From: Campylobacteraceae bacterium
GTDB taxonomy: Bacteria; Campylobacterota; Campylobacteria; Campylobacterales; Sulfurospirillaceae
Reading direction: 5' to 3'
Length of the DNA: 15,337 bases
Assembly (NCBI GenBank): GCA_027040375.1
Contig: JALUMJ010000012.1
Location: forward strand, 1-15,337
Shown in pieces: positions 2,674 to 15,200 of this stretch. Within the stretch, counting starts at the first letter, position 1. Each line of letters starts with the position of its first letter. The position numbers and the translations under genes are program-made. The notes under the pieces are model-generated. The model searched no databases. It worked only from the letters and a program-made list of their open reading frames with translations, and had not been told where the DNA came from.

Positions 2674-2678
2674 AATAG

Positions 2679-2703
2679 ACAGGTAGATTTGTAATCTACC
2701 TGT
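2679..2703. terminator. hairpin between convergent operons, probable bidirectional terminator
   Basis: A perfect 10-bp inverted repeat (ACAGGTAGAT / ATCTACCTGT) with a 5-nt loop fills the 35-nt gap between the stop codons of two convergent genes. The placement and symmetry suit a terminator working in both directions. U-tracts are weak: the minus-strand side runs into CTATTCTATTTTG, and the plus side has TGTAGTTATAAATTTTTT only further on. Confidence 0.7.
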
Positions 2704-2708
2704 TGTAG

Positions 2709-3179
2709 TTATAAATTTTTTAGAGTTCTTTCAAAATCTCCTGCGATTTCCTCACTAGCTTTTGCTACATCACTACTAGTAACATCTATCCAATGGATAA
2801 AAAGAGTGTCATCTTGCACATCCATCGTGATAGTCCCTGGAGTTAGAGTGATGCTGTTGGCTAGCATTAGTTTTTTATAATCCTCTTTTAGCTCAGTTTT
2901 AATCGCAACAATTCCTGGGTTTATCGGAAGTTTAGGGTCGATTACTCTTTTTGCTACATCCCAATTTGCTAAAAACAAGGCTTTTAAAAATGTCACAATA
3001 TATATAATATATGCAATCGGTCTAAATCTAAAATTATCGCTACTTGGATAATTTCTTACATATAATATCGCCAAAACAAGAGAGACAACAAAACCAGTTG
3101 TAACTTCTTGCACACTAAAACTCATAGTTAATCCAAGCCAAATTATAAATAAAAATATAGTCCAAAATATAATTCTCAT
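2709..3179 (-). CDS. MnhE/MrpE-family subunit (MbxA-like), last gene of the MBX-type operon
   Basis: A 156-residue membrane protein. Two or three hydrophobic segments occupy about residues 1-80. A cytoplasmic domain follows with the family hallmark NSITLTPGT, then TMDVQDDTLFIHW. This is the MrpE/MnhE fold of multisubunit Na+/H+ antiporters, present as MbhA/MbxA in archaeal membrane-bound hydrogenase and sulfur-reductase complexes. It belongs to the membrane arm and its precise role is structural. The start ATG overlaps the previous stop by 4 nt (ATGA), so it is translationally coupled to the NuoI-like gene. Its position is odd: in Mrp operons this gene lies next to mnhF/G, and in Pyrococcus mbx it comes first, whereas here it is last and separated from mnhF by eleven genes. 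The family call is firm. Confidence 0.92.
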   Translation of the reverse strand: MRIIFWTIFLFIIWLGLTMSFSVQEVTTGFVVSLVLAILYVRNYPSSDNFRFRPIAYIIYIVTFLKALFLANWDVAKRVIDPKLPINPGIVAIKTELKEDYKKLMLANSITLTPGTITMDVQDDTLFIHWIDVTSSDVAKASEEIAGDFERTLKNL

Positions 3180-3586
3180 GATACTTCCTCTCCTATACTT
3201 TTATGATTTTTTGGCATATATAAAAAATTATCTGGATTACTGTCTGCATGTGTACATATATTGTCAAGTTTCAATGAATCAGGAGGGCATACATCAGTGC
3301 AAAGTGAGCACCAACAGCATCTTCCGTAATCGATTCTTGGCACGCAACCACTTGTGTTTTTTATATTATACTCAATATCTGGATGAACCATATCAATCGC
3401 ATCATTCATACATACTTCTTCACAACTTGCACAGCCTATGCAGGTTTCTAAGTTATTTATATGAAAACCTCTATATCCAAGAGGAATATCTTTTTTAACC
3501 GCAGGATATGTAATCGTTTTAGGATGCTCAAAGAGAGTCCCTATCGCGCTAAGTGGTGACAATACACCTTTTACATCTATAGCCAT
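3176..3586 (-). CDS. NuoI/MbxN-like 2[4Fe-4S] ferredoxin subunit
   Basis: A 136-residue protein with two complete [4Fe-4S] motifs: Cys49-52-55-59 (CIGCASCEEVC) and Cys90-93-96-100 (CCWCSLCTDVCP). This matches the NuoI/HycF/MbxN electron-input subunit that wires a soluble donor to the NuoB-like cluster. Additional cysteines (81, 91, 111) are present. The start at 3586 is preferred because AAGGGAG lies about 6 nt upstream. An in-frame ATG at 3622 would lengthen the overlap with the upstream gene and has no comparable ribosome-binding site. No NADH-oxidising subunits are encoded nearby, so reduced ferredoxin, or an unlinked NAD(P)H module, is the likely donor (inference). It overlaps the MnhE gene by ATGA. 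Confidence 0.93.
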   Translation of the reverse strand: MAIDVKGVLSPLSAIGTLFEHPKTITYPAVKKDIPLGYRGFHINNLETCIGCASCEEVCMNDAIDMVHPDIEYNIKNTSGCVPRIDYGRCCWCSLCTDVCPPDSLKLDNICTHADSNPDNFLYMPKNHKSIGEEVS

Positions 3587-3597
3587 AATCTGCTCCC

Positions 3598-4713
3598 TTA
3601 TCTTTCTATTTCTGGTGGGCATATACCCAACGAATTCATGGTCATCGCAACATCAGATAACTGTGAATCTACTAGTAACTTTTCAAGCAAAGTATATGCA
3701 TGCACCAAAGATGGCCCTCGTACTTGCATTCTTCTAATTTTCTCACTTCCATCTCCTGCCATATAGTAACTCATTGCACCTCTTGCACTCTCTGTTTGCA
3801 CATAAGTATCGTCTGCTGGAAGTTTAAATTTTCTATGTTTTGGAATCTTTTGCAAGATATCACCCTCACTTGGCATTTGCTTGATAATTTGTCTTAAAAT
3901 TTTTATAGATTGCAACATTTCATCTCTTCTAACCAGTGCCCTCGCATACACATCTCCATCACTTTGCACTGGTATATCAAAATCAAGTTTATCATACATC
4001 AAGTACGGCATATCTTTTCTTACATCTTTTTTTATACCACAACCACGCATAACTTGACCAACATATGCATTTTTGATTACATCATCCGCATTTACTATGC
4101 CAACACCGATAGCTCTTTTTTTGAAGATTATATTATCAAAAAAAGTGTTATTGTAAACTATAATTCGTTTTTCATAATAATCAAGAAGATCAGACAACCT
4201 ACTAAGAAAACCTTCTGGCAAATCTCTTCTGACGCCCCCTGGGAAAGCATACATGTGGTAAACTCTACCACCAGTTAACTCTTCAAAAAGGTCTAACATA
4301 TAATCTCTATCGCAAACAGACCATTGAGGTATGAGTCCAAGCCCTATAGAGCCAGCTTGTCCACCCATCCATAAAAACATGGTTGCCAATCTTTGCATCT
4401 CAAGCACCATAGTTCTTATATATTTTGCTTTTTCGCTGATTTCAAGTCCAGTCAAATTTTCAACTGCTCTTGCAAAATTTTCTTCATTTGGATCAGGTTC
4501 TGGTACACAGATTCTACAGACTATCGTAAAAGCTTGTACAACAGTTCGTCTTTCGACTAATTTTTCAAATCCTCTGTGAAGATAACCTACATGTGTTTGT
4601 GCCCTTTTTATAGTTTCACCAAGTAAGTCAAGCTCTACACTCATATTTCCAGTGATTCCAGGATGCTGAGGACCATGAAATATCTTAATAGTATTTTCTA
4701 AATCATTCTTCAT
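3598..4713 (-). CDS. NuoD/[NiFe]-hydrogenase large-subunit-like protein lacking a NiFe site (MbxL-like)
   Basis: A 371-residue homologue of NuoD and of group 4 hydrogenase large subunits. It has the family N-terminus FHGPQHPG (12-19) and the HVGYLHRGFEKL loop (41-52) that packs near the proximal cluster. Using the invariant Arg67 as anchor, the hydrogenase motif R-x-C-G-x-C reads R67-I-C69-V-P-E72. Using the terminal Arg371, the C-terminal DPCxxC reads C365-P-P-E368. Each CxxC has therefore become CxPE, so a NiFe centre cannot be bound normally. NuoD itself has neither Cys pair, so this is also not a complex I NuoD. The pattern fits MbxL/Ehr-type (energy-converting hydrogenase-related) subunits. 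Cys66 is a further non-standard cysteine where hydrogenases have Glu or Asp. A ribosome-binding site AAGAGGTG precedes the start. It partners the NuoB-like subunit in the peripheral arm. Confidence 0.93.
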   Translation of the reverse strand: MKNDLENTIKIFHGPQHPGITGNMSVELDLLGETIKRAQTHVGYLHRGFEKLVERRTVVQAFTIVCRICVPEPDPNEENFARAVENLTGLEISEKAKYIRTMVLEMQRLATMFLWMGGQAGSIGLGLIPQWSVCDRDYMLDLFEELTGGRVYHMYAFPGGVRRDLPEGFLSRLSDLLDYYEKRIIVYNNTFFDNIIFKKRAIGVGIVNADDVIKNAYVGQVMRGCGIKKDVRKDMPYLMYDKLDFDIPVQSDGDVYARALVRRDEMLQSIKILRQIIKQMPSEGDILQKIPKHRKFKLPADDTYVQTESARGAMSYYMAGDGSEKIRRMQVRGPSLVHAYTLLEKLLVDSQLSDVAMTMNSLGICPPEIER

Positions 4714-5314
4714 TTTGCACCTCTTGGCTTGGATTATTTTGTGTTTCTAATTCTGCTTTTGCAGCAGCTTCTTGCTCAGCTTTTAATTTTGCTGCTTTTT
4801 TTGCTTCTCTTTTCTTTTTCATCTCTACTTTTGCATCGAGTGCATCATCTCTTTGTCCACGAAAAGGATTCATATCATTTACATATTGAAGTGTATCAAA
4901 GTCTCTTCTTAGTGGCGGTATATTGTCCCAATACTCCAATGCAAAATCGATGAGAGTAGGGTGTCCTGGAAAATCTACACCAAACATTTCATGCATTTCT
5001 CTTTCCATTATCTCAGCTTGAGGCCAAAATGTATGTATAGAAGGCAAACTTGCATTTTCTCGCTCAATACTTGTTTGAACCATGACAACATGGTCTCTTT
5101 TTGGAGTTAATAAACAATAAGTGATAACAAAATTTCCTTCTTCTAAGTCGTCTCTACAATTGATAGAATCAAGCGTGATATATCCAAACTCATTTAAAAA
5201 ACTAAGTAGGAGAGATTCAAGTTGTTCTTTTTTTACCTCTACTTTATATAGATAATCTTGCTTTTGAACAAGTTCAAGTGATAATTTTTCTAATTTAGAT
5301 ATTAATTCTATCAT
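4703..5314 (-). CDS. NuoC-like 30-kDa subunit (MbxK-like) with charged C-terminal tail
   Basis: A 203-residue protein. The respiratory-chain 30-kDa signature lies at about residues 84-119: ERENASLPSIHTFWP, then MEREMHEMFGVDFPGHP. This marks the NuoC/HycE-N/MbxK subunit that scaffolds the NuoB- and NuoD-like subunits. Residues 1-35 are charged and helical. After the conserved core (to about 153) comes an unusual tail of roughly 45 residues rich in Lys, Glu, Ala and Gln (KKKREAKKAAKLKAEQEAAA), predicted to be helical or disordered. The start ATG overlaps the NuoB-like stop as ATGA, and the end overlaps the NuoD-like gene by 11 nt, so the three peripheral-arm subunits are translationally coupled. 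The family call is firm; the role of the tail is unknown. Confidence 0.93.
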   Translation of the reverse strand: MIELISKLEKLSLELVQKQDYLYKVEVKKEQLESLLLSFLNEFGYITLDSINCRDDLEEGNFVITYCLLTPKRDHVVMVQTSIERENASLPSIHTFWPQAEIMEREMHEMFGVDFPGHPTLIDFALEYWDNIPPLRRDFDTLQYVNDMNPFRGQRDDALDAKVEMKKKREAKKAAKLKAEQEAAAKAELETQNNPSQEVQNEE

Positions 5315-5946
5315 ACTTCACTCCCATTTTCAAGATTATACCAGTCGGTTTCGTAAGAAGGATCAACATGATTTCCAAGTACTCTTTTTTGGTTTTTCTT
5401 ATAAAAATCAAGGTTTTCATCATACTTTTCCCAACCAGCTTTTTCCCCATTTTTGATTCTTTTTTGAAGAAGAGAAAAACCGTCTATGACTGCCTCTGGT
5501 CTTGGCATACAACCTACAACAGAGACATCAACAGGCAAATAATCATCAAGTTTTTTTATAGTATTGTATGAATCCCAATACATTCCACCATTTATCGGGC
5601 AACTTCCTAGTGTGATTATGTATTTTGGTTTTTGCATTTGCTCATAAGTTCGTATAACCCTTCTTAGGGTTTTATATGCCAAATATCCAGATAATATAAT
5701 CAAATCAGCTTGTCTTGGCGTGGCAACACCAACAACTCCCATCCGTTCAGCATCATATCTACTTGTAAATGTAGGCGGCATCTCTATAGCGCCACAGCCT
5801 GTGCCGTATGCCACTACAAATATACTTCTACTTCTAAACCACGCAGCTGCTTTTTCCATCACAGAATGAGTATTTTGTGTTCCACTCTCTTCTAGCTTAC
5901 ACTTTAGACTATCGTCTAAATCACAGCCATGAAAACCACTTTCCAT
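5311..5946 (-). CDS. NuoB/hydrogenase small-subunit-like Fe-S protein with three-Cys cluster site (MbxJ-like)
   Basis: A 211-residue homologue of NuoB and of group 4 hydrogenase small subunits. With the start at 5946, the family motifs are GTGC51-GAIEMPP, GSC116-PINGG and GC146-MPRPEA. NuoB has tandem Cys-Cys followed by AIE; here the second Cys is Gly52, leaving three canonical ligands. A site-differentiated, three-Cys [4Fe-4S] cluster has been proposed as the catalytic centre of archaeal MBS. Two extra N-terminal cysteines (8 and 16) might substitute as ligands, so this is not proof. Start choice: AAAGGGGAG precedes two adjacent ATG codons. The second (5946) has the better spacing; 5949 and an in-frame TTG at 5964 are alternatives. 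No maturation-protease tail is expected. The gene overlaps the NuoC-like gene by ATGA. Confidence 0.92.
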   Translation of the reverse strand: MESGFHGCDLDDSLKCKLEESGTQNTHSVMEKAAAWFRSRSIFVVAYGTGCGAIEMPPTFTSRYDAERMGVVGVATPRQADLIILSGYLAYKTLRRVIRTYEQMQKPKYIITLGSCPINGGMYWDSYNTIKKLDDYLPVDVSVVGCMPRPEAVIDGFSLLQKRIKNGEKAGWEKYDENLDFYKKNQKRVLGNHVDPSYETDWYNLENGSEV

Positions 5947-5956
5947 CATCTCCCCT

Positions 5957-6850
5957 TTATCCAAACCAAATAATTCTAACCAATCCGATTACTCCGATTA
6001 GTGTAGGTATCTTCATTAAAAAATCAACAGCTTGCTCTACTTTGTATCTACCATAAACAATGCCTATAAAAATAATAGTTATAAAAATAGCAAATGTTTT
6101 TATCACTAACATCCATAATGAATCAGCACCACCTAAAAATAAATCTATAATCAAAACAAGTTTAGCAAAGGCAAATATAGAACCTTGTGACATAAGCAAT
6201 GCTAAGAATTTACCACTAAATTCAGTCCTAGGTCCAGAATAAACCTCTTGAGGGGCTCCTGGTATATCAAATGGAGAAGCTCCAAAAAAACCAACCATAG
6301 ATATCATAGCTGCTATAAATAAAAATGGATGAACCAAGATATTTAAACCAGTAGTTTTTTGCAAATCTATGATATGTACTATATCGCTACTGTTTGATGC
6401 AATTATCAAACCAACTACAGCTATATAAAATGGAAGCTCCAAGCCTATGAGCCTTGTAAGACCTCTTACAACTCCCATAACACCAAATGGATTTCCACCC
6501 GTCCCAACGGCTAAAGCATTGCCCAATGGTCCTAAAACCATAAGATATAGCAGTAAAAACAGATTTCCTTGTGTTGTGACGCTTCTTAAAAAATCACTAT
6601 CGCTAAAAACAGGGACGAGTATGAGTGTTAAAACTGCTCCTGTTGCCATGATTACAGGTCCAAGATAAAACATCCAGCCGTAACTTACTGAATTTTTTTT
6701 AGAAAATAGCTTAATGCTATCATAAAATGTTTGATATACCGTTGGACCATATCTACCTTGAATTCTAGCTGTTATATTTCGATATAAACCCATATAGATA
6801 AAACCAACAACATATGCTAGCATGATAAGTAATATAATTTGAAAAATCAT
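5957..6850 (-). CDS. NuoH-like membrane subunit (MbxM-like)
   Basis: A 297-residue protein with about eight transmembrane segments, of the NuoH/HycD/MbhM/MbxM family. This subunit anchors the peripheral Fe-S arm to the membrane arm and carries the coupling channel. Visible family motifs are RIQGRYGP (29-36) in the first cytoplasmic loop, a conserved Glu138 in GLELP within a membrane helix, and the long loop ASPFDIPGAPQEV followed by SGPRTEFSG (191-213) with Glu202 and Glu210. This loop contacts the NuoB/NuoD pair in complex I relatives. Its start codon overlaps the stop of the upstream 590-residue antiporter gene (TAATG). Length and motifs are normal. Confidence 0.94.
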   Translation of the reverse strand: MIFQIILLIMLAYVVGFIYMGLYRNITARIQGRYGPTVYQTFYDSIKLFSKKNSVSYGWMFYLGPVIMATGAVLTLILVPVFSDSDFLRSVTTQGNLFLLLYLMVLGPLGNALAVGTGGNPFGVMGVVRGLTRLIGLELPFYIAVVGLIIASNSSDIVHIIDLQKTTGLNILVHPFLFIAAMISMVGFFGASPFDIPGAPQEVYSGPRTEFSGKFLALLMSQGSIFAFAKLVLIIDLFLGGADSLWMLVIKTFAIFITIIFIGIVYGRYKVEQAVDFLMKIPTLIGVIGLVRIIWFG

Positions 6851-8622
6851 TAGTTAACTCCTATAAAATACAATGCACTAAAAAATAGCAAGATTATAAT
6901 CATGGTATTGTGAATATTGCCATAATACATCCTGCTTAAAAGTCCTGCGGTTTTCTTTGTTTGTGTGGCTAATGCCTCATAAAATGGGCTAGAGCTTCTT
7001 TTTAGTATGGCATTGACAAATTTTATCCTATACAAGTCTGTTCCAAAACCATATCCATAGTGTAATTGCGTATTTTTAGAAGGAACTTCTCCACAATAGC
7101 TTATATCAAATCTATTGAGATTGTTTTTAGCTTTTGATTTGATTCTCCATATCAAAAGTAAAATAAAGACAAAAATCACTACAAAAGCACTTATTATGAA
7201 CAATCCATTAAAATTACCTACAGCACTTTGCATAACGCCCATGCTTGTGTAAGGTATAGTATTTAAAGAAAATTCGATTAAAATTGGATTTATAACTTTG
7301 ATAAATGCTCCTGGAAATGCTCCAGTTGCCACTAATAAAAGTGCTAGTATGACCTGAGGTATAAGATAACTAATCGGTACTTCCTTTTGAGTTTCCAAAT
7401 CTTTTGATGTTGGATGACCAAGATATATGCCATATACAAGTTTATAACAATACAAAAATGAGGCTGCACCAGAGAAAAGCATACCAACTAAGATAAGAGC
7501 AAATTTTGAATCAATTGCTGCATTATAAAGCATAAATTTTGATGCAAATCCACCAAGTGGAGGCATACCAGCAAGAGCTATGATTCCTATCAACAACATC
7601 ACAAAAGATACTGGGGTTCTATATATCAAACCACCTAATTCACTAAATTTATTTTTACCAGTTTGTGCAACGATGGCAGCAACATTTATAAACAACAGTA
7701 GTTTTATGATTGTATGAATCAAAGTGTGGTACATTGCCCCCGCCACACCAAAAGAAGTTCCCATACCGATAACTGCGATTATGTAACCTAATTGTGCTAT
7801 AGATGAGTAAGCTAACAATCTTTTTACCTCATCTTGTGTAATTGCCTTAAATGTAGCTATTATTGAAGTAATTACACCAATCCAACCAAGAACATAACCA
7901 AAATCTGTACCATTTAGGATAACTCCAAACATATCTTTTAACTCTGCATATCCCACCAAATGTCCATATACTAAAAATAATCCATATATTCCCATCTTTG
8001 ACATAACTGCTGAAAGTATAGAGCTAAACAAATCAGGTGCTTTAGAATATGTATCTACAACCCAATAGTGAAGCCCTATGACTCCAGCTTTTGTAAAAAA
8101 GCTAAGAGAAAAGAGGACAATCAATGCCACTTTTATATTAAAAGGCATAGTATGAAATGAGTTTTGAATGACATTAAAATCAAATGAATTTGCAAAAGAA
8201 TACGCAATCACCATACCAGCAATCAAAGAAAAAGCAGATGCAAGTGAAAATAGTATGTATTTTTGTAAAGATTTTGTATCTATATCGCTTGATTTTGAGA
8301 TTAAGAAGTAGCTGCTCCAAGTCATAATCTCCCAACCGATAAAGAAAGTGATAAAGTCACCAGCTAAAACTATAGCTAACATGGCGATAGAGAGTAAAAA
8401 TTGCAAAGCATAATAGCTAAAAGATGTTTTCTTACTTTTTTGGGCTATGGTTACTAGTAAAAATGATATCAAACTCAAGTATGCGAAAAATGTACCCAAT
8501 GGTGTCTGCGATAGGCTTAGAGTAAACTCTTTTGTTAAAGATAAGCTTACATGTAAGTCTCCGCCAAATTGGTATAAAAACAGTATAGGTAGTAAATTTA
8601 ACAATAAAAATATCGAATTCAT
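6850..8622 (-). CDS. second NuoL/M/N-like antiporter subunit (MbxH'-like)
   Basis: A 590-residue polytopic protein of the proton-translocating NADH-quinone oxidoreductase family (MrpA/MrpD/NuoL type), with about 14 transmembrane helices. The key channel residues are present: Glu98 in FFIGWEIMTW (TM5), Lys178 in FFTKAGVIGLHYWVVD (TM7), Lys307 after HTLIHTII, and Lys362 in GGFASKFML. The C-terminal 85 residues hold FDISYCGEVPS (505-515), an amphipathic stretch and a last transmembrane helix, similar to HyfB/HycC-type subunits. It sits between a second antiporter subunit and the NuoH-like subunit, as MbxH' does in Pyrococcus. Two pump subunits distinguish MBX/MBS from the single-pump MBH. Whether H+ or Na+ moves cannot be told from the sequence. 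The start overlaps the upstream stop (ATGA). Confidence 0.93.
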   Translation of the reverse strand: MNSIFLLLNLLPILFLYQFGGDLHVSLSLTKEFTLSLSQTPLGTFFAYLSLISFLLVTIAQKSKKTSFSYYALQFLLSIAMLAIVLAGDFITFFIGWEIMTWSSYFLISKSSDIDTKSLQKYILFSLASAFSLIAGMVIAYSFANSFDFNVIQNSFHTMPFNIKVALIVLFSLSFFTKAGVIGLHYWVVDTYSKAPDLFSSILSAVMSKMGIYGLFLVYGHLVGYAELKDMFGVILNGTDFGYVLGWIGVITSIIATFKAITQDEVKRLLAYSSIAQLGYIIAVIGMGTSFGVAGAMYHTLIHTIIKLLLFINVAAIVAQTGKNKFSELGGLIYRTPVSFVMLLIGIIALAGMPPLGGFASKFMLYNAAIDSKFALILVGMLFSGAASFLYCYKLVYGIYLGHPTSKDLETQKEVPISYLIPQVILALLLVATGAFPGAFIKVINPILIEFSLNTIPYTSMGVMQSAVGNFNGLFIISAFVVIFVFILLLIWRIKSKAKNNLNRFDISYCGEVPSKNTQLHYGYGFGTDLYRIKFVNAILKRSSSPFYEALATQTKKTAGLLSRMYYGNIHNTMIIILLFFSALYFIGVN

Positions 8623-10073
8623 AGTCCTACTCCTAGTGCAAATTGAAGATAGCTATGCGGTTGCAGCAAAGCATTTGTTGCTAAATCTGTATAATGAGTC
8701 AATAGCGAAGGATAAACGCCAAAAAGCACTATCAAGATAGCTAAAACAGATAAAACTATATAGTTGACAAATCCAACTGGCACGCTTGTTTTTGTTCTTT
8801 TTTTATCTAACATCAAAGCAATAAGCCTAAAGAAATAAACCGCTTCTACGATAGAAACCAAGAGTATGAAAGCTATGGCTATATAGTTGTGTGAAAGTGC
8901 AAAGCCTTTGAGAATCAAGATTTTACCAATAAATCCACTAAATGGTGGAATTCCTAAAATCGATAAAAAACCTATGATTAAAACTATGCTTAAAAACAGA
9001 GATTTAAAGTCACCGACTATCGTAATCTTTGTGCTTTTAAATTTGCTGATTAAAATTCCAAGAACTAAAAATATCAACAACTTAGATATAGAGTGACTTG
9101 CTAGATGAAACAATGCACCAGAAATGGTGTCGCTAGAGTTAGAAGCTAAAGCCATAAATAAGATACCTAATTGCCCAAGCGTTGAGTATGCAAAAAGCCT
9201 TTTGATATCTTTTTGATTTAAGGCTGTAAATTCTGAAACTAGGAATGTAATAGCTCCTAGACTCATAATTAAAAGCGTATATTTTGTATTTAATCCAAAC
9301 AGATAAAAGAGGTGAAAAAATACAAATAGATAAGATTTGGCGACGATTGCACTAAAAAGTCCATTTACATGTGAGCTACTTCCTTGATATATATCAGGTG
9401 CCCAAAAGTTCATAGGGAAAAGTTCTGCTTTTGTTCCAAAGCCGATAAAAAGCATCAAGGCTATCAAAACTGCAATTTTAGGATCAATTTCACTGTATCT
9501 TTGAGCTATAAGCCCTATATTTACAGTACCAATCTGCAAGTATATAAGCATAATAGCAAAAACTATAAATATAGAAGCTATAGAGCCGATGATAAGGTAT
9601 TTGATGCCAGCTTCTAGTCCTAATTTGTCTTTATTGTAAGCTGCTAGTGCGTATGAGCTAATGCCTGTGATTTCAAAAAAGATATACACATTAAATATAT
9701 CACAGCTAAGTATCATGCCGATACTTCCAGCTAATAACATGTTAAAAAATACATAAAATCTTGTCTCATTTGTATTGTCATTTGCTTTAAAATACCAAAG
9801 CATATAGAGTGAAACCATAAAACCACTAAATGTAAAAATCAACAAAAACAATAAGGAAAAATTGTCTAGTACAAAAGCGATACCTATAGGAGGTGCTACA
9901 GAAAATTGTGAAATCTGAGGTAAACTTACGCCTGTGTATTCCAGCGTTTGGACAAAAAGTATAAAAGTTAGAAAAACTGAACTGCCTCTTAGAGCAGAAG
10001 TTCCTAGTTTTCTAAAATAAGGAGTTAAAAATGAAAAAATAACGGGTAATAAAAAATAATAACCTAAGCTCAT
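8619..10073 (-). CDS. MrpD/MnhD-like antiporter subunit (MbxH-like)
   Basis: A 484-residue protein with about 14 transmembrane helices, of the MrpD/NuoN/NuoM family. Channel residues seen are Glu134 in VYIFFEITGISSYAL (TM5), Lys215 in GFGTKAELFPMNFWAPD (TM7), Lys246 in IVAKSYLF, Lys331 in FHLASHSISKLLIF and Lys384 in GFIGKILILKG. It directly follows the MnhC-like gene (1-nt gap), the standard Mrp C-D order, and overlaps the next antiporter gene by ATGA. It is therefore the distal pump of the membrane arm. Paralogy with the adjacent 590-residue subunit suggests an old duplication. The family assignment is firm; the translocated ion is unknown. Confidence 0.94.
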   Translation of the reverse strand: MSLGYYFLLPVIFSFLTPYFRKLGTSALRGSSVFLTFILFVQTLEYTGVSLPQISQFSVAPPIGIAFVLDNFSLLFLLIFTFSGFMVSLYMLWYFKANDNTNETRFYVFFNMLLAGSIGMILSCDIFNVYIFFEITGISSYALAAYNKDKLGLEAGIKYLIIGSIASIFIVFAIMLIYLQIGTVNIGLIAQRYSEIDPKIAVLIALMLFIGFGTKAELFPMNFWAPDIYQGSSSHVNGLFSAIVAKSYLFVFFHLFYLFGLNTKYTLLIMSLGAITFLVSEFTALNQKDIKRLFAYSTLGQLGILFMALASNSSDTISGALFHLASHSISKLLIFLVLGILISKFKSTKITIVGDFKSLFLSIVLIIGFLSILGIPPFSGFIGKILILKGFALSHNYIAIAFILLVSIVEAVYFFRLIALMLDKKRTKTSVPVGFVNYIVLSVLAILIVLFGVYPSLLTHYTDLATNALLQPHSYLQFALGVGL

Positions 10074-10074
10074 A

Positions 10075-10452
10075 TTAATCCCTTAATTCATTCATTTTAG
10101 ATATATCATTTATACCTGTGAGTCTAAAATACTCAATACCAAATGACAATCCAAGTGCTAAAACCGCAAGACCAATAACGATGGTTGTAAGTATCATCGC
10201 TTGTGGAACTGGGTCAACCATATTTGTAAAAGTTTTGTCACTTCCATCTACGATAGGAGCCACAAGACCAAAATTATAATGCAAACCAATAAAAAATAAA
10301 AACAAAGCACTTTCCATTATGTCAAACGATATCAAGACTTTTACCAAGTTTTTTTGTGTAAATATTCCATACAACCCTATGGTAAAAAGCAACATCGAAC
10401 CGACTGTTATGATAAAATGTATAGTTTCATTTGAATTAAAAAAATCAAGCAT
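10075..10452 (-). CDS. MnhC/NuoK-like subunit (MbxG-like)
   Basis: A 125-residue protein with three transmembrane segments. It contains the NuoK/MrpC-type helix LVKVLISFDIMESAL with Glu47, and the MrpC hallmark DPVPQAMILT (80-89) followed by a TIVIGLAVLALGL helix. It forms part of the proton path beside the antiporter subunits. The start at 10452 is preferred because AAAGAGGT lies about 5 nt upstream and the overlap with the MnhB stop is then only 8 nt. An in-frame ATG at 10485 would add 11 residues (MLKKIILKRCL) not typical of the family. One nucleotide separates its stop from the MbxH-like gene. Confidence 0.93.
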   Translation of the reverse strand: MLDFFNSNETIHFIITVGSMLLFTIGLYGIFTQKNLVKVLISFDIMESALFLFFIGLHYNFGLVAPIVDGSDKTFTNMVDPVPQAMILTTIVIGLAVLALGLSFGIEYFRLTGINDISKMNELRD

Positions 10453-11173
10453 GAGGCACCTCTTTAAGATAATCTTCTTTAACAAAATACTCTACGATAA
10501 CGCTCATCTCACTACCTACTTTTATACCTACTATTATATAGATAATCGGGATAATACCACCACTTACAAGTTCTCCAATTTGACTAACTGGGTGTGGTAA
10601 AAAGTTTCCAAGTAGTATATTTATCTTAAATAGTGATATGATAGCAATTAACACATAAGCAGCACCACTAAGTGATTCGCCAAGTGTCAATATAGAGTGT
10701 TTTAGTTTCATATTTGGATTTGCTAAAAACAGCAATAAAAATGCAGTAGCTATAACAACACCACCTTGAAAACCACCACCTGGACTTAGATGACCATGCA
10801 CGATGACATAAACACCAAAAAGCACTATAACATTTAAAAGCATCTTACTGCCGATATCCAAAATAAAACTTTCTTGATGAACAACTTTTTTATAAGTTCT
10901 CTGAGTTGATGAAAGCATCAAAGCTATACCTGTAGTTGCTAAAAAAAGCACAGTAACCTCACCAACTGTATCAATTCCACGAAAGAAAGTGACAACAGAT
11001 GTGACAGCATTTGCTGTAGCTGTTTGCATATTTAGCGATAAAACTATATCTCCAACTGTTTTATGCAAATTTGTCTTTACATGTGAGAGCAAGCCAAGAA
11101 TAGAAAGCATCAGAGCAGAAGAGAGTAGGGATAAAACTATATGCTTTAACCTAAATTCTTTTTTTAGATTCAT
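10445..11173 (-). CDS. MbhE-MnhB fused subunit (MbxF-like)
   Basis: A 242-residue membrane protein combining two Mrp modules. Residues about 10-90 resemble MbhE or the C-terminal end of MrpA: a first helix, then FFRGIDTVGEVTVLF with Glu72, in a family usually reading 'DTLGE'. Residues about 100-242 are the MnhB domain, with VHGHLSPGGGFQGGVV (125-140) and four or so transmembrane helices. In MBH these are separate E and F subunits; the Pyrococcus mbx series skips E, consistent with the same fusion. It is part of the ion-translocating membrane arm. The start overlaps the upstream small subunit by ATGA. It could be annotated simply as MnhB, but the length and N-terminal motif support a fusion. 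Confidence 0.9.
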   Translation of the reverse strand: MNLKKEFRLKHIVLSLLSSALMLSILGLLSHVKTNLHKTVGDIVLSLNMQTATANAVTSVVTFFRGIDTVGEVTVLFLATTGIALMLSSTQRTYKKVVHQESFILDIGSKMLLNVIVLFGVYVIVHGHLSPGGGFQGGVVIATAFLLLFLANPNMKLKHSILTLGESLSGAAYVLIAIISLFKINILLGNFLPHPVSQIGELVSGGIIPIIYIIVGIKVGSEMSVIVEYFVKEDYLKEVPHA

Positions 11174-11421
11174 GATTCCATCTCCTTATCGATAGAAGTA
11201 TGCCTGATGCCTAGTAAAAACACTGCTGTGCTAAGTCCTGTGCCAATAACCGCTTCAGTAAGTGCAACATCAGGAGCTTGAAATATAAAAAATAGCACAA
11301 CACTACCAAGACCAACTCCCATAAAAAGTATCACAGACTGAGTTATATCTTTGCTCAAGATTGCATAAAATGCAACGGATAGGATGGCAAGAAAGGTAAA
11401 TAAAATTGTAATTCCTATCAT
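11170..11421 (-). CDS. MbhD-like / MrpA C-terminal (DUF4040) subunit (MbxD-like)
   Basis: An 83-residue protein with about three transmembrane helices. It has the DUF4040 signature FQAPDVALTEAVIGTGLS, including Glu56. In canonical Mrp antiporters this segment is part of the C-terminal region of MrpA; in MBH/MBX-type complexes it is a separate small subunit (MbhD). Finding it free-standing between the MnhG and MnhB genes is one sign that the operon is MBH/MBX-like and not a plain Mrp antiporter. Both ends overlap neighbouring genes by ATGA, so it should be made in register with them. Confidence 0.93.
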   Translation of the reverse strand: MIGITILFTFLAILSVAFYAILSKDITQSVILFMGVGLGSVVLFFIFQAPDVALTEAVIGTGLSTAVFLLGIRHTSIDKEMES

Positions 11422-11759
11422 AATTCTTCCTCTTTGTTAGTATCTGCTGTTTTAAGAGCATCTGCTCCGCTTGTATTGTAAACATGTTTATAAAATCTTT
11501 TGTAAGTAGTCATCGCTAACAATGAAGATGAGATTGGATTTGTAATTAACAAAAATATACTTAAAACGACAAGCTTAAATGTCCATTGTGGCTCAAAACA
11601 AGCTACTCCTAAAATCACAAATAAAGAACCAAGCGTTGAAGCTTTTGTTGCGGCTTGCATACGAGTAAGAGTATCTGGCATACGCAACAAGCCAATACCA
11701 CTGATAAAAAATAGAATTACCCCTAAAAAACCAAGAATATACCCTAAGATACTTAGCAT
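11418..11759 (-). CDS. MnhG/MrpG-family subunit (MbxC-like)
   Basis: A 113-residue protein with about three transmembrane segments. The MrpG hallmark GIGLLRMPDTLTRMQAATK (21-39) is followed by ASTLGS. The C-terminal 25 residues are hydrophilic (NTSGADALKTADTNKEEEL) and likely cytoplasmic. It is a membrane-arm subunit of Mrp/MBH/MBX complexes. It sits between the MnhF gene (TAATG overlap) and the MbhD-like gene (ATGA overlap). The family call is unambiguous. Confidence 0.94.
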   Translation of the reverse strand: MLSILGYILGFLGVILFFISGIGLLRMPDTLTRMQAATKASTLGSLFVILGVACFEPQWTFKLVVLSIFLLITNPISSSLLAMTTYKRFYKHVYNTSGADALKTADTNKEEEL

Positions 11760-12007
11760 TAAAGCTCCTTATCCAAAAATTTTGCGAATACAACAGTACC
11801 TATGAATCCAGTCAATCCAAATACAAAAGCAACATCTAAATATAAGCTTTTGTGGAAATAGAAAGACAGAACCACCAGCAATGAAGTAGTTATGACGCTC
11901 ATTGAGTCAAAGGCAACTACTCTATCAACTAAAGTCGGACCCCTTAAAAACCTAATTAATGCTAACAATAGCGATAACGCTATAAGTAAAATTAAAAAAT
12001 TAAACAT
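11759..12007 (-). CDS. MnhF/MrpF-family subunit (MbxB-like), first gene of the operon
   Basis: An 82-residue protein with three transmembrane helices and the MrpF hallmark RGPTLVDRVVAFD (22-34). It is the promoter-proximal gene of the 13-gene operon. A GGGG lies about 5 nt before the ATG and may serve as a weak Shine-Dalgarno. The stop overlaps the next start as TAATG. In Pyrococcus mbx the MnhE gene precedes this one; here that gene has moved to the operon end. The family call is firm. Confidence 0.94.
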   Translation of the reverse strand: MFNFLILLIALSLLLALIRFLRGPTLVDRVVAFDSMSVITTSLLVVLSFYFHKSLYLDVAFVFGLTGFIGTVVFAKFLDKEL

Positions 12008-12111: not shown

Positions 12112-12174
12112 GTTGATACAAATATCATATAATTTAAATTAAACTTTATTTGCAAAAATTAATGTAAAATTTTG

Positions 12175-12180
12175 TATAAT
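12175..12180 (+). promoter_or_regulatory. consensus -10 (TATAAT) immediately before the TRIC gene
   Basis: A perfect TATAAT preceded by TG ends 6 nt before the ATG at 12187, so transcription would begin at or next to the start codon. A weak TTGCAA at 12150-12155 (19-nt spacer) could be a -35. No Shine-Dalgarno is seen. This implies a leaderless transcript if the promoter is used. Confidence 0.5.
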
Positions 12181-12186
12181 ACAAAA

Positions 12187-12810
12187 ATGATTAGCAATAC
12201 AATTTTATTAGATCTAGCAGATTTTATCGGTATTATTTCTTTCGCATTGAGTGGTTTTTATGTGGCTACAAAAGATAGACTAGATTTGCTTGGCATCTTT
12301 ATAGCTTCTTTTTTAACTGCCCTTGGTGGTGGGGTTATACGAGATATTATTGCAGAACAAATCCCTTTTTCTTTTTTTGAAAAATCACCTGCTATCATCG
12401 TTATCTCAGTTTTGTTTTTGAGTATTTTGTTTGGCTTGCACAAAAAAAGCAAAATTATCAATAGCAAAATTTTGATTTTAAGTGACTCTATAGGTTTGAT
12501 TTCCTTTTCAATTTCAGGAGCATTAGTAGGCTTACATGTAGGCTTTAGTATGTTTGGTGTTGCTTTGCTTGCAATCATCACAGCGACTGGTGGCGGTGTG
12601 ATGAGAGATATCTTACTAAATAAAATTCCTCTTCTTTTAACAAGCGAGCTTTATGGAACCATCTCTTTGTTAATTGGAATTATTTTATATGAACTTAATT
12701 TATATGAGCAAATAAATATTTATACCATAAGTGCTCTCTTTGCTTTTGGTTTGATATTCAGGCTTCTTGCATATTATAGAAAATGGCATCTCCCGCTTCT
12801 AAATACTTAA
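12187..12810 (+). CDS. TRIC/UPF0126 family membrane protein (YicG/YadS-like)
   Basis: A 207-residue membrane protein with seven predicted transmembrane helices arranged as an internal duplication. Each half carries a glycine motif: GGGVIRDII (47-55) and GGGVMRDIL (135-143). This is the UPF0126/TRIC fold; prokaryotic members are trimeric cation channels or have been linked to glycine transport, so the substrate is uncertain. The ATG at 12187 is preferred. An in-frame TTG at 12172 would place the TATAAT inside the coding region and has no ribosome-binding site either. It is transcribed divergently from the MBX-type operon; a functional link is not shown. It may supply a counter-ion conductance (speculation). 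Confidence 0.9.
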   Translation: MISNTILLDLADFIGIISFALSGFYVATKDRLDLLGIFIASFLTALGGGVIRDIIAEQIPFSFFEKSPAIIVISVLFLSILFGLHKKSKIINSKILILSDSIGLISFSISGALVGLHVGFSMFGVALLAIITATGGGVMRDILLNKIPLLLTSELYGTISLLIGIILYELNLYEQINIYTISALFAFGLIFRLLAYYRKWHLPLLNT

Positions 12811-12856: not shown

Positions 12857-14041
12857 ATGTATGAAAAAATGGATAAAGATTTTGTACTAAATACTTATGC
12901 TAGAAACTATGTAAATTTCAAACAAGGCATCAATGCAACTTTGTATGACGACAAAGGCAAAGATTATATAGATTTTACTAGTGGGATAGGCGTTGTGAGC
13001 GTAGGTCACGGTAACGCTAGGATGGCAAATGCTATATGTGAACAAGCTAGAAATCTTATACATACTTCAAACTTATATTTGATAGAGCCTCAAGCCAAAT
13101 TGGCTAAAAAGATTGTTCAATTAAGCGGCTTCGATATGGCTGTATTTTTCGCAAATTCTGGAGCAGAAGCAAATGAAGGAGCCATAAAGATAGCCAGAAA
13201 GTATGGTGAGCGAAAATTTAAAAACAAAAAATATAAAATTATAACTTTAGAAAACTCATTTCATGGTAGAACCATCACAACAGTAAAAGCAACAGGACAG
13301 AAAAGTTTTCATAAGTCTGATTTTAGCCCATATCCAGATGGATTTTCATTTGATAAAAACATAAAAACAATCTATGACTCTATAGATGATGAAACTATAG
13401 CTGTTATGATTGAGTTAGTGCAAGGCGAGGGTGGAGTTTGGCCAATCGACAAAAAAGAAGTTCAAGATTTGGCGAAATATTTAAAAGAAAGAGGACTCTT
13501 ACTTATAGTCGATGAAGTTCAAACTGGTGTCTATAGAAGTGGAGAATTTTTAGCCACAAATCTATATGAGATTGAGCCAGATATCATCACTCTAGCTAAG
13601 GGATTAGCAGGAGGAGTGCCGATAGGTGCAGTTTTAACAAAGCATAAAGACATATTTGAACCAGGTGATCACGGAAGCACTTTTGGAGGCAATTTTTTAA
13701 GCACAAGAGCTGGACTTGAAGTGCTTGATATTCTAGAAAGCTATAAAAATAGTGGCTTGCTTGATGAAACATTTTTGTATTTTGAAGAAAATCTAACTGA
13801 CATATGTTCAAAGTATCCAAATATCTTTAACAAGCAAGTTGGGCTAGGTTTGATGCGAGGTTTGAGATGCAAAGATGCACAAGTTTTATCGGATGCTATA
13901 AAAGCGTGCTTTGATGAGGGCTTGCTTGTTTTAAAAGCTGGACAAAATACTCTTCGCGTATTGCCACCGCTAACGATAAGTAAAGATGAGATAAAAGAAG
14001 GGTTTAAGAGGATGAAAAATGCATTTGACAAAATCTCTTAG
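12857..14041 (+). CDS. argD: acetylornithine aminotransferase, class III PLP enzyme
   Basis: A 394-residue cytosolic enzyme, the usual ArgD length. It converts N-acetylglutamate semialdehyde and glutamate to N2-acetylornithine and 2-oxoglutarate in arginine biosynthesis, and ArgD enzymes often also serve as succinyldiaminopimelate aminotransferase in lysine/peptidoglycan synthesis. Visible features are the SGIGV loop near the N-terminus, the phosphate-binding FANSGAEANEGA (98-109), NSFHGRT (133-139), VDEVQTG with Asp219 for the PLP pyridine N, the Schiff-base Lys248 in ITLAKGLAGGVP, GSTFGGN (273-279) and Arg367 for the substrate carboxylate. The start is supported by AAGGA 7 nt upstream. The 3' end overlaps the TolC-like gene by 23 nt. 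Other class III aminotransferases are possible, but motifs and length favour ArgD. Confidence 0.92.
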   Translation: MYEKMDKDFVLNTYARNYVNFKQGINATLYDDKGKDYIDFTSGIGVVSVGHGNARMANAICEQARNLIHTSNLYLIEPQAKLAKKIVQLSGFDMAVFFANSGAEANEGAIKIARKYGERKFKNKKYKIITLENSFHGRTITTVKATGQKSFHKSDFSPYPDGFSFDKNIKTIYDSIDDETIAVMIELVQGEGGVWPIDKKEVQDLAKYLKERGLLLIVDEVQTGVYRSGEFLATNLYEIEPDIITLAKGLAGGVPIGAVLTKHKDIFEPGDHGSTFGGNFLSTRAGLEVLDILESYKNSGLLDETFLYFEENLTDICSKYPNIFNKQVGLGLMRGLRCKDAQVLSDAIKACFDEGLLVLKAGQNTLRVLPPLTISKDEIKEGFKRMKNAFDKIS

Positions 14042-15200
14042 CTTTTGCCTGCTATTGTCGTACTCCACGCTGTTTGCTACGCAGAGTAATCTACTTTCAA
14101 ATTTGAAAAAAGAGATTATAAAAAATGATCAGCAAAAAAACGAGCTAAATAGTGATAATCTAGAGAAAAGTTGGATAAACAGCATCGATGGAAAATTTTC
14201 TTACAATGAAAATGATTCGATAAATCACAAGTATGAAACGACCAATACCCTTTCTATATCTATAAATCAACCTATATTTAAAAGTGGTGGGATTTATTAT
14301 GCCATTAAATACGCAAATGCCGATAGAAATTTTTTAAGAATTGTAAATAAAAATAGTGAACAATTGCAGATAAAAACGACTTTATCCTCTTTATATAATA
14401 TCAAAAAGATAGATTTGCAACTTCAAAAACAGAAACTTCTGATAAAAAATGCAAAGATAGATATACTCAGAAAAGAGGAGCAATACAAAAGTGGCTTCTT
14501 GGACAGTAGTTACTTAAATCAATCCATACTCTCTAAAAATTCTCTTGAAAGAGGATTGCTAGACATGAAATCAAGCAGGTTTGACCTTGTTAAAATATTT
14601 AAATCATATAGTGATATAAATATCAAAAATACCAAACTTCCTGTTTTCTCTCTAATAGACGAATCAAAGTTTTTGAAAAAATCACTAGCAATTTCCCAAA
14701 AAAATAGTGAAATAGTCAAAAACAACTACCTTAAAAAGATGACAAAATCAAGCTACTTGCCTACAGTATCTTTCAGTGCTGGATACCATAATACACACGA
14801 TTTTGGCAGTAAAAAATATACAAATTTTGGCTTGACTTTCAGTATTCCGCTTATAGATATAAATAGAAACAGGACTATCCAAATAAAAAATTTGGAATAC
14901 TTAAAATCAAAACTTGAACTAAGTGACACAAAAAGAGCACAAAAAGAAAATTATGATAGCGTTGTAAATAAGATATTATTACTAAAAGAAAAAATAAAAC
15001 TTACAAATAGAGATTTGAAACTTTATGATTCACTTTTGAGCTCAACCAAAGATTCTTTTAAAGCAGGAGAAAAAACTATCTATGATGTTCAGACTCTTGA
15101 AAATTCTAAAAAAACTATGGACTTAGATGCTAAAATTTTCAAATTAGATATACAGTTAGCTCTATTAGAATTATATGCGCAGATGAACGGTGAAATTTAG
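14019..15200 (+). CDS. TolC-family outer-membrane efflux protein
   Basis: A 393-residue exported protein. Residues 1-20 form a signal peptide (MHLTKSLSFCLLLSYSTLFA). The mature part shows two repeats of long coiled-coil helices (about 95-180 and 285-390) flanking beta segments (LSISINQPIFKSGG near 75-90; LPTVSFSAGYHN and FGLTFSIPLID near 247-280). This is the OEP/TolC trimer-tunnel architecture. It is shorter than the roughly 450-490 residues typical of TolC, mainly by lacking long termini. AAGAGG 7 nt upstream supports the ATG inside the argD end. Such proteins pair with periplasmic adaptors and inner-membrane pumps, but none is encoded here, so the substrate is unknown. The stop overlaps the next gene. 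Confidence 0.85.
   Translation: MHLTKSLSFCLLLSYSTLFATQSNLLSNLKKEIIKNDQQKNELNSDNLEKSWINSIDGKFSYNENDSINHKYETTNTLSISINQPIFKSGGIYYAIKYANADRNFLRIVNKNSEQLQIKTTLSSLYNIKKIDLQLQKQKLLIKNAKIDILRKEEQYKSGFLDSSYLNQSILSKNSLERGLLDMKSSRFDLVKIFKSYSDINIKNTKLPVFSLIDESKFLKKSLAISQKNSEIVKNNYLKKMTKSSYLPTVSFSAGYHNTHDFGSKKYTNFGLTFSIPLIDINRNRTIQIKNLEYLKSKLELSDTKRAQKENYDSVVNKILLLKEKIKLTNRDLKLYDSLLSSTKDSFKAGEKTIYDVQTLENSKKTMDLDAKIFKLDIQLALLELYAQMNGEI

Follow-up and report, generated by a model that had tools for sequence, protein, structure and literature searches.

A 13-gene MBS/MBX-type operon with rearranged cysteines in Campylobacterota, encoding a probable ferredoxin:polysulfide oxidoreductase

We analyzed a 15,337-nucleotide stretch of DNA from a Campylobacteraceae bacterium (here called the window), which is the entire contig JALUMJ010000012.1 of a 1.67-Mb, 224-contig, 91% complete genome (GCA_027040375.1), and found that it carries a 13-gene operon for a respiratory complex of the MBS/MBX type, the sulfane-sulfur reductase-like family. 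Membership in this family is well supported by protein homology and phylogeny. The complex is probably a ferredoxin:polysulfide oxidoreductase coupled to ion pumping, with a proximal cluster bound by three cysteines, in a form whose cysteines are rearranged relative to the MBS of Pyrococcus furiosus.

The operon comprises 13 open reading frames on the minus strand, running from 12007 to 2709 and separated by 1-base gaps or overlapping by up to 41 bases with the listed start codons. In operon order, Pfam and NCBIfam name the products MrpF, MnhG, MbhD, a fusion of MbhE (a weak match) with MnhB, MnhC, two antiporter-type subunits, NuoH-, NuoB-, NuoC-, NuoD- and NuoI-like proteins, and MnhE. The top E-values among these proteins are near 1e-115, which excludes chance matches. 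The 13 genes map one-to-one onto P. furiosus MbsB, C, D, E, G, H, H', M, J, K, L, N and A. A first-pass annotation made from the sequence had called this a complete MBX/MBS-type operon, and that claim holds for all 13 open frames. It had also listed MbhE+B. The fused gene is present, and the fusion is the normal state of MBS; it is to be expected because MbsE of P. furiosus is a single six-helix protein, as stated in the study of that 13-subunit complex, whose structure (6u8y) was solved and mechanism tested (PMC7684303).

Seven subunits (L, J, H, H', M, N and D) were searched by sequence against the PDB, and each has P. furiosus MBS, 6u8y, as its top match. For MbsL the match scored 299 bits, followed by complex I at 212 and MBH at 131. 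The scores for the best and next matches were 217 and 126 bits for MbsJ, 256 and 170 for MbsH, 231 and 147 for MbsH', 142 and 75 for MbsM, 58 and 45 for MbsN, and 47 and 28 for MbsD. The comparison thus finds two pump subunits of the antiporter type (H and H'), each closest to its counterpart in 6u8y, which bears out the earlier reading that the pump number is that of MBS. In addition, the redox subunits J, K, L and N lie within the same operon as the membrane module, so the complex is, as had been claimed, not a plain Mrp antiporter.

Phylogeny of the L subunit gives the same placement. We built a tree of 33 rows covering complex I, group 4 hydrogenases, Ehr-like proteins, MBH, 11 Campylobacterota L sequences and 6u8y_L. 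The complex I rows were two types from MBS-positive genomes plus 2fug and 7q5y; matches to NuoC only were dropped, and fused proteins were trimmed to their D part. The 11 Campylobacterota sequences and 6u8y_L grouped with support of 100/99, apart from complex I, which formed its own group (95/96), and from the hydrogenases. 6u8y_L is the sole MBS from outside the phylum in this tree, and the grouping is to be read with a long-branch warning. An L phylogeny was among the checks proposed at the outset, and this one puts L outside both true hydrogenases and complex I. Four hydrogenase-large-subunit-like proteins without CxxC (L059, L060 and L061, in genomes G331 and G061), which we called Ehr-like, sit on a branch of their own.

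Active-site residues agree with this placement. In the L alignment, the quinone-site residues His38 and Tyr87 of Nqo4 correspond to Thr20 and Val70, and Glu21 of MbhL is replaced by Gly; absence of these three residues is described as a mark of MBS (PMC7684303). The distinction from complex I drawn by the first-pass annotation is therefore upheld by the lost quinone-site residues, the separate L branch and an operon with no NuoE, NuoF or NuoG. Its statement that L has no NiFe ligands needs amendment: Glu replaces two of the four NiFe cysteines, and L is not a hydrogenase, but the other two remain as C69 and C365, as they do in P. furiosus MbsL. True hydrogenases in relatives (L034, L035 and L058) retain all four.

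The proximal-cluster subunit and L differ from P. furiosus in a consistent pattern of cysteines. MbsJ C57, C122 and C152 correspond to the three ligands of the proximal [4Fe-4S] cluster in P. furiosus (C28, C93 and C123), whereas the position of P. furiosus Cys25 is occupied by Gly54 in each of 20 distinct J sequences. Gly54 and all three cysteines are conserved in 19/19 J; the displaced J of G542 likewise has Gly54 and C57. These J counts cover 20 of the 26 distinct L-bearing genomes (G393, G444, G447, G474, G479 and G535 are left out); the 26 correspond to 30 rows less 4 duplicates, L041 to L044 repeating L010, L011, L007 and L008. Relative to P. furiosus, L has gained C66 (25/25) and C225 (25/26, with Ala in the diverged L of G479), and it has kept C69 (25/25) and C365 (26/26); L084 ends before C66 and is left out of the C66 and C69 counts. 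In genome G479 (L083) the L sequence is only 56% identical to that of the window, C66 is kept, and J would lie beyond the contig end. Directly after C66 stands Arg67, in all 25 rows, and we take the complex I equivalent of this arginine to lie beside cluster N2. Loss of the J cysteine and presence of L Cys66 co-occur in every genome where both positions were seen, and Cys66 may lie near the place of the lost J cysteine. MbsN has the eight cysteines for its clusters and three more, all conserved in the seven rows counted (L007, L010, L011 and L039 left out). The best NCBIfam match of MbsN, below cut-off, is to PRK13984, a model of a 611-residue putative oxidoreductase, in its N-terminal part. 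On these patterns the Campylobacterota complex is a cysteine-rearranged form relative to P. furiosus, the one characterized MBS and the only one with which the pattern was compared.

Published work on P. furiosus gives these changes a mechanistic context. Cys25 of MbsJ is described as non-ligating, the J C25A and L C85A/C385A mutants are still active, and removal of the labile iron abolishes activity (PMC7684303). From the gene set, homology, phylogeny and residue patterns of the window, we infer cofactors, donor, acceptor, direction and pumped ion as follows. Reduced ferredoxin would donate electrons to the two [4Fe-4S] clusters of MbsN, from which they would pass to the proximal [4Fe-4S] cluster of MbsJ, for which no more than three cysteine ligands are predicted (C57, C122 and C152). 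Polysulfide or another disulfide would be split at the fourth iron site of that cluster, facing a chamber between J, L and M. The energy released would be conveyed through M to the Mrp-type module and the two pumps, H and H', building a gradient of H+ or Na+. Of the 14 charged-axis positions compared across H, H', M and D, most are kept, 11 being identical to those of P. furiosus and the other three differing as given below: MbsH E138, K250 and H330; MbsH' E128, K217, K248 and H336; MbsM D196, E203 and E211; and MbsD E58. By analogy with P. furiosus and Thermotoga maritima, the best-fitting role for such a complex would be overflow metabolism or fermentation of stored glycogen with S0 as the electron sink. 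Coordinates of the operon genes and key residues are collected in Table 1.

Table 1. Genes, cysteine-pattern residues and candidate terminator of the MBS-type operon (positions in the window)
Feature	Position	Strand	Basis or remark
MbsB (MrpF-like), 82 aa	11759..12007	-	PF04066
MbsC (MrpG-like), 113 aa	11418..11759	-	PF03334
MbsD (MbhD), 83 aa	11170..11421	-	PF13244; 6u8y_D best; E56 matches P. furiosus MbsD E58
MbsE (fused MbhE+MnhB), 242 aa	10445..11173	-	PF04039; PF20501 below cut-off; NF009217
MbsG (MrpC/NuoK-like), 136 aa from listed TTG	10075..10485	-	NCBIfam
MbsH, antiporter-type pump subunit, 484 aa	8619..10073	-	6u8y_H best, 256 bits
MbsH', second antiporter-type pump subunit, 590 aa	6850..8622	-	6u8y_X best, 231 bits
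MbsM (NuoH-like membrane anchor), 297 aa	5957..6850	-	6u8y_M best, 142 bits
MbsJ (NuoB-like, proximal cluster), 217 aa from listed TTG	5311..5964	-	6u8y_J best, 217 bits
MbsJ Gly54-Thr-Gly-Cys57	5794..5805	-	Gly at P. furiosus Cys25 place; Cys57 = ligand C28
MbsJ Cys122 codon	5599..5601	-	P. furiosus ligand C93
MbsJ Cys152 codon	5509..5511	-	P. furiosus ligand C123
MbsK (NuoC-like), 203 aa	4703..5314	-	PF00329
MbsL (NuoD/hydrogenase-large-subunit-like), 371 aa	3598..4713	-	6u8y_L best, 299 bits; L tree
MbsL Cys66-Arg-Ile-Cys69	4507..4518	-	Cys66 is Leu in P. furiosus; Cys69 = C85
MbsL Cys225 codon	4039..4041	-	Thr in P. furiosus
MbsL Cys365 codon	3619..3621	-	P. furiosus C385
MbsN (NuoI-like, two [4Fe-4S] motifs), 148 aa	3176..3622	-	6u8y_N best, 58 bits; cysteines
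MbsA (MrpE-like), 156 aa	2709..3179	-	PF01899
Inverted repeat, near-perfect	2674..2708	.	Between operon end and convergent GGDEF gene; read from sequence

Several observations weigh against a polysulfide reductase of the P. furiosus kind. The charged axis partly differs: MbsH E219 is Lys here, and Val and Ser replace MbsM E104 and E193 throughout the alignment of ten Campylobacterota M sequences. L Cys66 might itself be a ligand of the proximal cluster, capping it. The AlphaFold2 model of J, with a predicted confidence (pLDDT) of 59.7, is too poor for geometry. For the L model, which is of moderate quality (pLDDT 71.4), Foldseek put complex I at the top and 6u8y_L at rank 9, so the search does not discriminate. 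In G444 (L088) and G447 (L089), the stretches read show K-L-N-A but no other MBS gene, and the neighbors are unrelated genes, folB among them. Finally, the hosts resemble autotrophs with a demand for reduced ferredoxin, and they also have anchors of the NrfD/PsrC type.

This last point concerns the metabolic setting, which we surveyed by searches of MBS-positive genomes. The citrate-binding domain of ATP-citrate lyase and NrfD/PsrC-type anchors were each found in 6/6 genomes searched, and SoxB exceeded its cut-off in 10/16. NiFe hydrogenase was above cut-off in four of six and in seven of ten further genomes (11/16 in all) and was not found above cut-off in the other 5/16 (G196, G393, G479, G498 and G535). 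The hosts are thus probably sulfur- and/or H2-oxidizing autotrophs with other sulfur enzymes. The host genome of the window (G000) also has two separate complex I loci, L002 on contig C192 and L003 on contig C68: one has separate NuoB, C and D followed by small unusual proteins at the place of NuoE/F, and the other has a fused NuoCD followed by NuoE.

In such hosts the complex could in principle run backwards, an ion gradient driving electrons from sulfide or polysulfide to ferredoxin for the reductive tricarboxylic acid cycle. The ATP-citrate lyase and SoxB results fit this, as does the lack of a NiFe hydrogenase match above cut-off in five of the 16 genomes; moreover, the MBS energy figure of 41 kJ/mol per 2 electrons given in PMC7684303 approximates, by our own estimate, the cost of two pumped ions. 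We nevertheless consider reverse operation unlikely: the data for P. furiosus and T. maritima indicate sulfur reduction; alternative routes exist in the NrfD/PsrC-type anchors and the two complex I loci; 11 of the 16 genomes do have a NiFe hydrogenase; and in two genomes the operon adjoins glycolysis genes, which fits catabolism. The more specific proposal that the Campylobacterota subtype (J Cys25 lost, L Cys66 and Cys225 gained) works in this direction in sulfur-oxidizing autotrophs with the reductive cycle, supplying gradient-driven ferredoxin for carbon fixation, strikes us as decidedly improbable; if true, it would bear on how such organisms reduce ferredoxin. It is also conceivable, though quite unlikely, that an MBS-like complex here serves another acceptor: NADP, or else an organic disulfide (CoA disulfide, for instance). 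The cysteines around the cluster are unlike those of P. furiosus, MbsN has its sub-threshold match to PRK13984, and MBX was earlier regarded as a ferredoxin:NADP oxidoreductase, according to PMC4596419. However, by Pfam and NCBIfam none of the 13 genes encodes a subunit that binds NAD(P), and the published mechanism treats inorganic and organic disulfides alike (PMC7684303), so this alternative is partly the same answer.

Another possibility is that L Cys66, beside Arg67, supplies a fourth ligand. The cluster would then be closed, and the chemistry would take place at L C66, C69, C225 and C365, for example through a persulfide or disulfide. The co-occurrence of Cys66 with the loss of J Cys25 points this way, as does the proximity of the neighboring arginine's complex I equivalent to N2. 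We regard it as very unlikely, since L residues 44-77, which include C66 and C69, fall below pLDDT 50 and give no geometry, the Leu at the aligned position in P. furiosus gives no hint of a ligand, and the L cysteines tested in P. furiosus are dispensable in the mutant data cited above. Least probable, to the point of being barely conceivable, is that complex I or a hydrogenase has been misread or that the contig is a contaminant. L does exceed the cut-off of an NCBIfam NuoD model, and J those of two NuoB subfamily models, but the same genome has its two complex I loci elsewhere, and the L tree and residues exclude both complex I and hydrogenase. Contamination is argued against by the closed genome G061 of the same genus, in which TolC-, ArgD- and TRIC-like genes lie on the mrpF side of the operon as they do in the window, with two other genes in between.

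We next consider how the ferredoxin:polysulfide oxidoreductase candidate is distributed. With a criterion of 1e-70 in the L search, under which misses in incomplete metagenome-assembled genomes may be false, L proved sparse, being found in 6/397 sampled genomes of the phylum. It occurs in 7 of 10 genomes of the window's genus, which account for all 7 positives among 44 genomes of its family (f1), and in 18/175 genomes of a second family (f4), spread over 6 of 11 genera. Six metagenome-assembled contigs of relatives (Campylobacteraceae/Campylobacterales) have L at 85-95% identity; we presume these to be of vent origin, going by one title ("Dive100") and the general habitat. In a second L tree of 25 Campylobacterota rows, which leaves out G535 and places the diverged G479 unsurely, the f1 genus is nested among the f4 rows (fork 91/83; two changes forced for f4). 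This suggests transfer of MBS between the two families. From one family to the other L is about 74% identical, much as NuoD is (74-76%), so any such transfer would be old. A plasmid search with L returned 244 records, all below 60% identity; the 15 listed of the 244 are from Rhizobium/Sinorhizobium, nuoD being the feature given in the three of them that specify one.

Gene order is largely but not universally preserved. All 13 genes stand in the window's order in 7 of 10 relative loci (L006, L007, L008, L010, L036, L037 and L038) and also in G498 (L090); in L007 the MbsA match spans 104 of 156 residues, and H' of L037 and L038 was verified by tblastn. Partial loci are L009 and L011, both cut by contig ends, and L039. 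We rejected the idea of one unbroken 13-gene block everywhere, since exceptions occur in G542, G393, G444 and G447, with a split or interrupted operon in at least three genomes; for the last three of those named, other MBS subunits were sought on the stretches read and not genome-wide. G542 (L086/L087) has all 13 genes, but a 218-residue frame and a 613-residue methylase-like frame separate M from J, and a TmtA-like gene of 1,444 codons (PADLOC) and a DUF1016/YhcG-like gene lie between J and K, packed and in the same direction. These defense-type genes within the operon occupy L086 13599-19024 and 11109-12950, the methylase-like assignment being a reading of the sequence. A DUF1016-like protein, described in nearly the same terms as that of G542, precedes K in G393, up to the contig end (L039 18700-19942).

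In the two g45 genomes, G335 (L037) and G196 (L038), the MBS block has pgi-pfk on one side and a gene for a GH57 alpha-amylase on the other, flanks seen only there. Their congener G177 (L057) keeps pgi-pfk, but its DNA is different from a point some 150 bp past pgi, which indicates that the block comes and goes. A link to sugar metabolism as a general rule was rejected: phosphofructokinase occurs in 102/394 sampled genomes of the phylum, and of the first six MBS-positive genomes to be examined, four have it (G331, G196, G335 and G393) and two, G000 and G061, lack it.

In the window itself, the inverted repeat at 2674-2708 is probably a terminator common to the operon and the convergent GGDEF gene (1528-2673). 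The flanking frames have no evident link to the complex: besides the GGDEF protein, they encode an outer-membrane-receptor-like protein (38-1105), a PF03458 membrane protein (12172-12810) and, by sequence reading, an ArgD-like aminotransferase (12857-14041) and a TolC-like protein (14019-15200).

Sulfur reduction in Campylobacterota is usually ascribed to a quinone-linked, molybdenum-containing polysulfide reductase. MBS would give some members of the phylum a second sulfur route, linked to ferredoxin, directly ion-pumping and on the cytoplasmic side. A literature search limited to open-licence papers, part of them judged by title or opening of the abstract, found no report of MBS/MBX in Campylobacterota. 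Bacterial MBX has already been published; the new point is the conserved cysteine changes relative to P. furiosus, as read from the alignments. The first-pass annotation had mentioned neither these changes nor the sparse distribution nor the split copies of relatives. The fixed changes amount to a natural experiment on the proposed MBS mechanism: the J cysteine that P. furiosus can dispense with is gone from every J seen, and L has acquired cysteines.

Among known systems, the complex most resembles P. furiosus MBS, with which it has in common 13 subunits, a fused MbsE, two pumps, three proximal ligands, equivalents of C85 and C385, and the absence of quinone-site residues. It differs in J Cys25 (Gly), the gained L Cys66 and Cys225, MbsH E219 (Lys) and the replaced MbsM E104 and E193. 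The operon of the window also ends with an mbsA-type gene, unlike that of P. furiosus, where we take this gene to come first. Bacterial homologues exist in other phyla and are likened here by description, not by sequence: the T. maritima mbx encodes a 13-subunit MBS homologue, with mbxA rising with S0 (PMC9431562), and the mbx of Caldanaerobacter/Thermoanaerobacter shows evidence of lateral transfer (PMC4596419). Complex I (NuoA-N) shares homologues of NuoB, C, D, H, I and the antiporter subunits, whereas the operon described here lacks NuoE/F/G and the quinone-site His and Tyr, has an Mrp Na+ module and falls on a separate branch. The group 4 [NiFe] hydrogenases MBH, Ech and Hyf share the peripheral arm and membrane parts, but the Campylobacterota complex has Glu in place of two of the four NiFe cysteines, and it has two pumps versus the one of MBH. 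The Mrp Na+/H+ antiporter, finally, shares the membrane module but lacks the Fe-S/NuoD arm present here.

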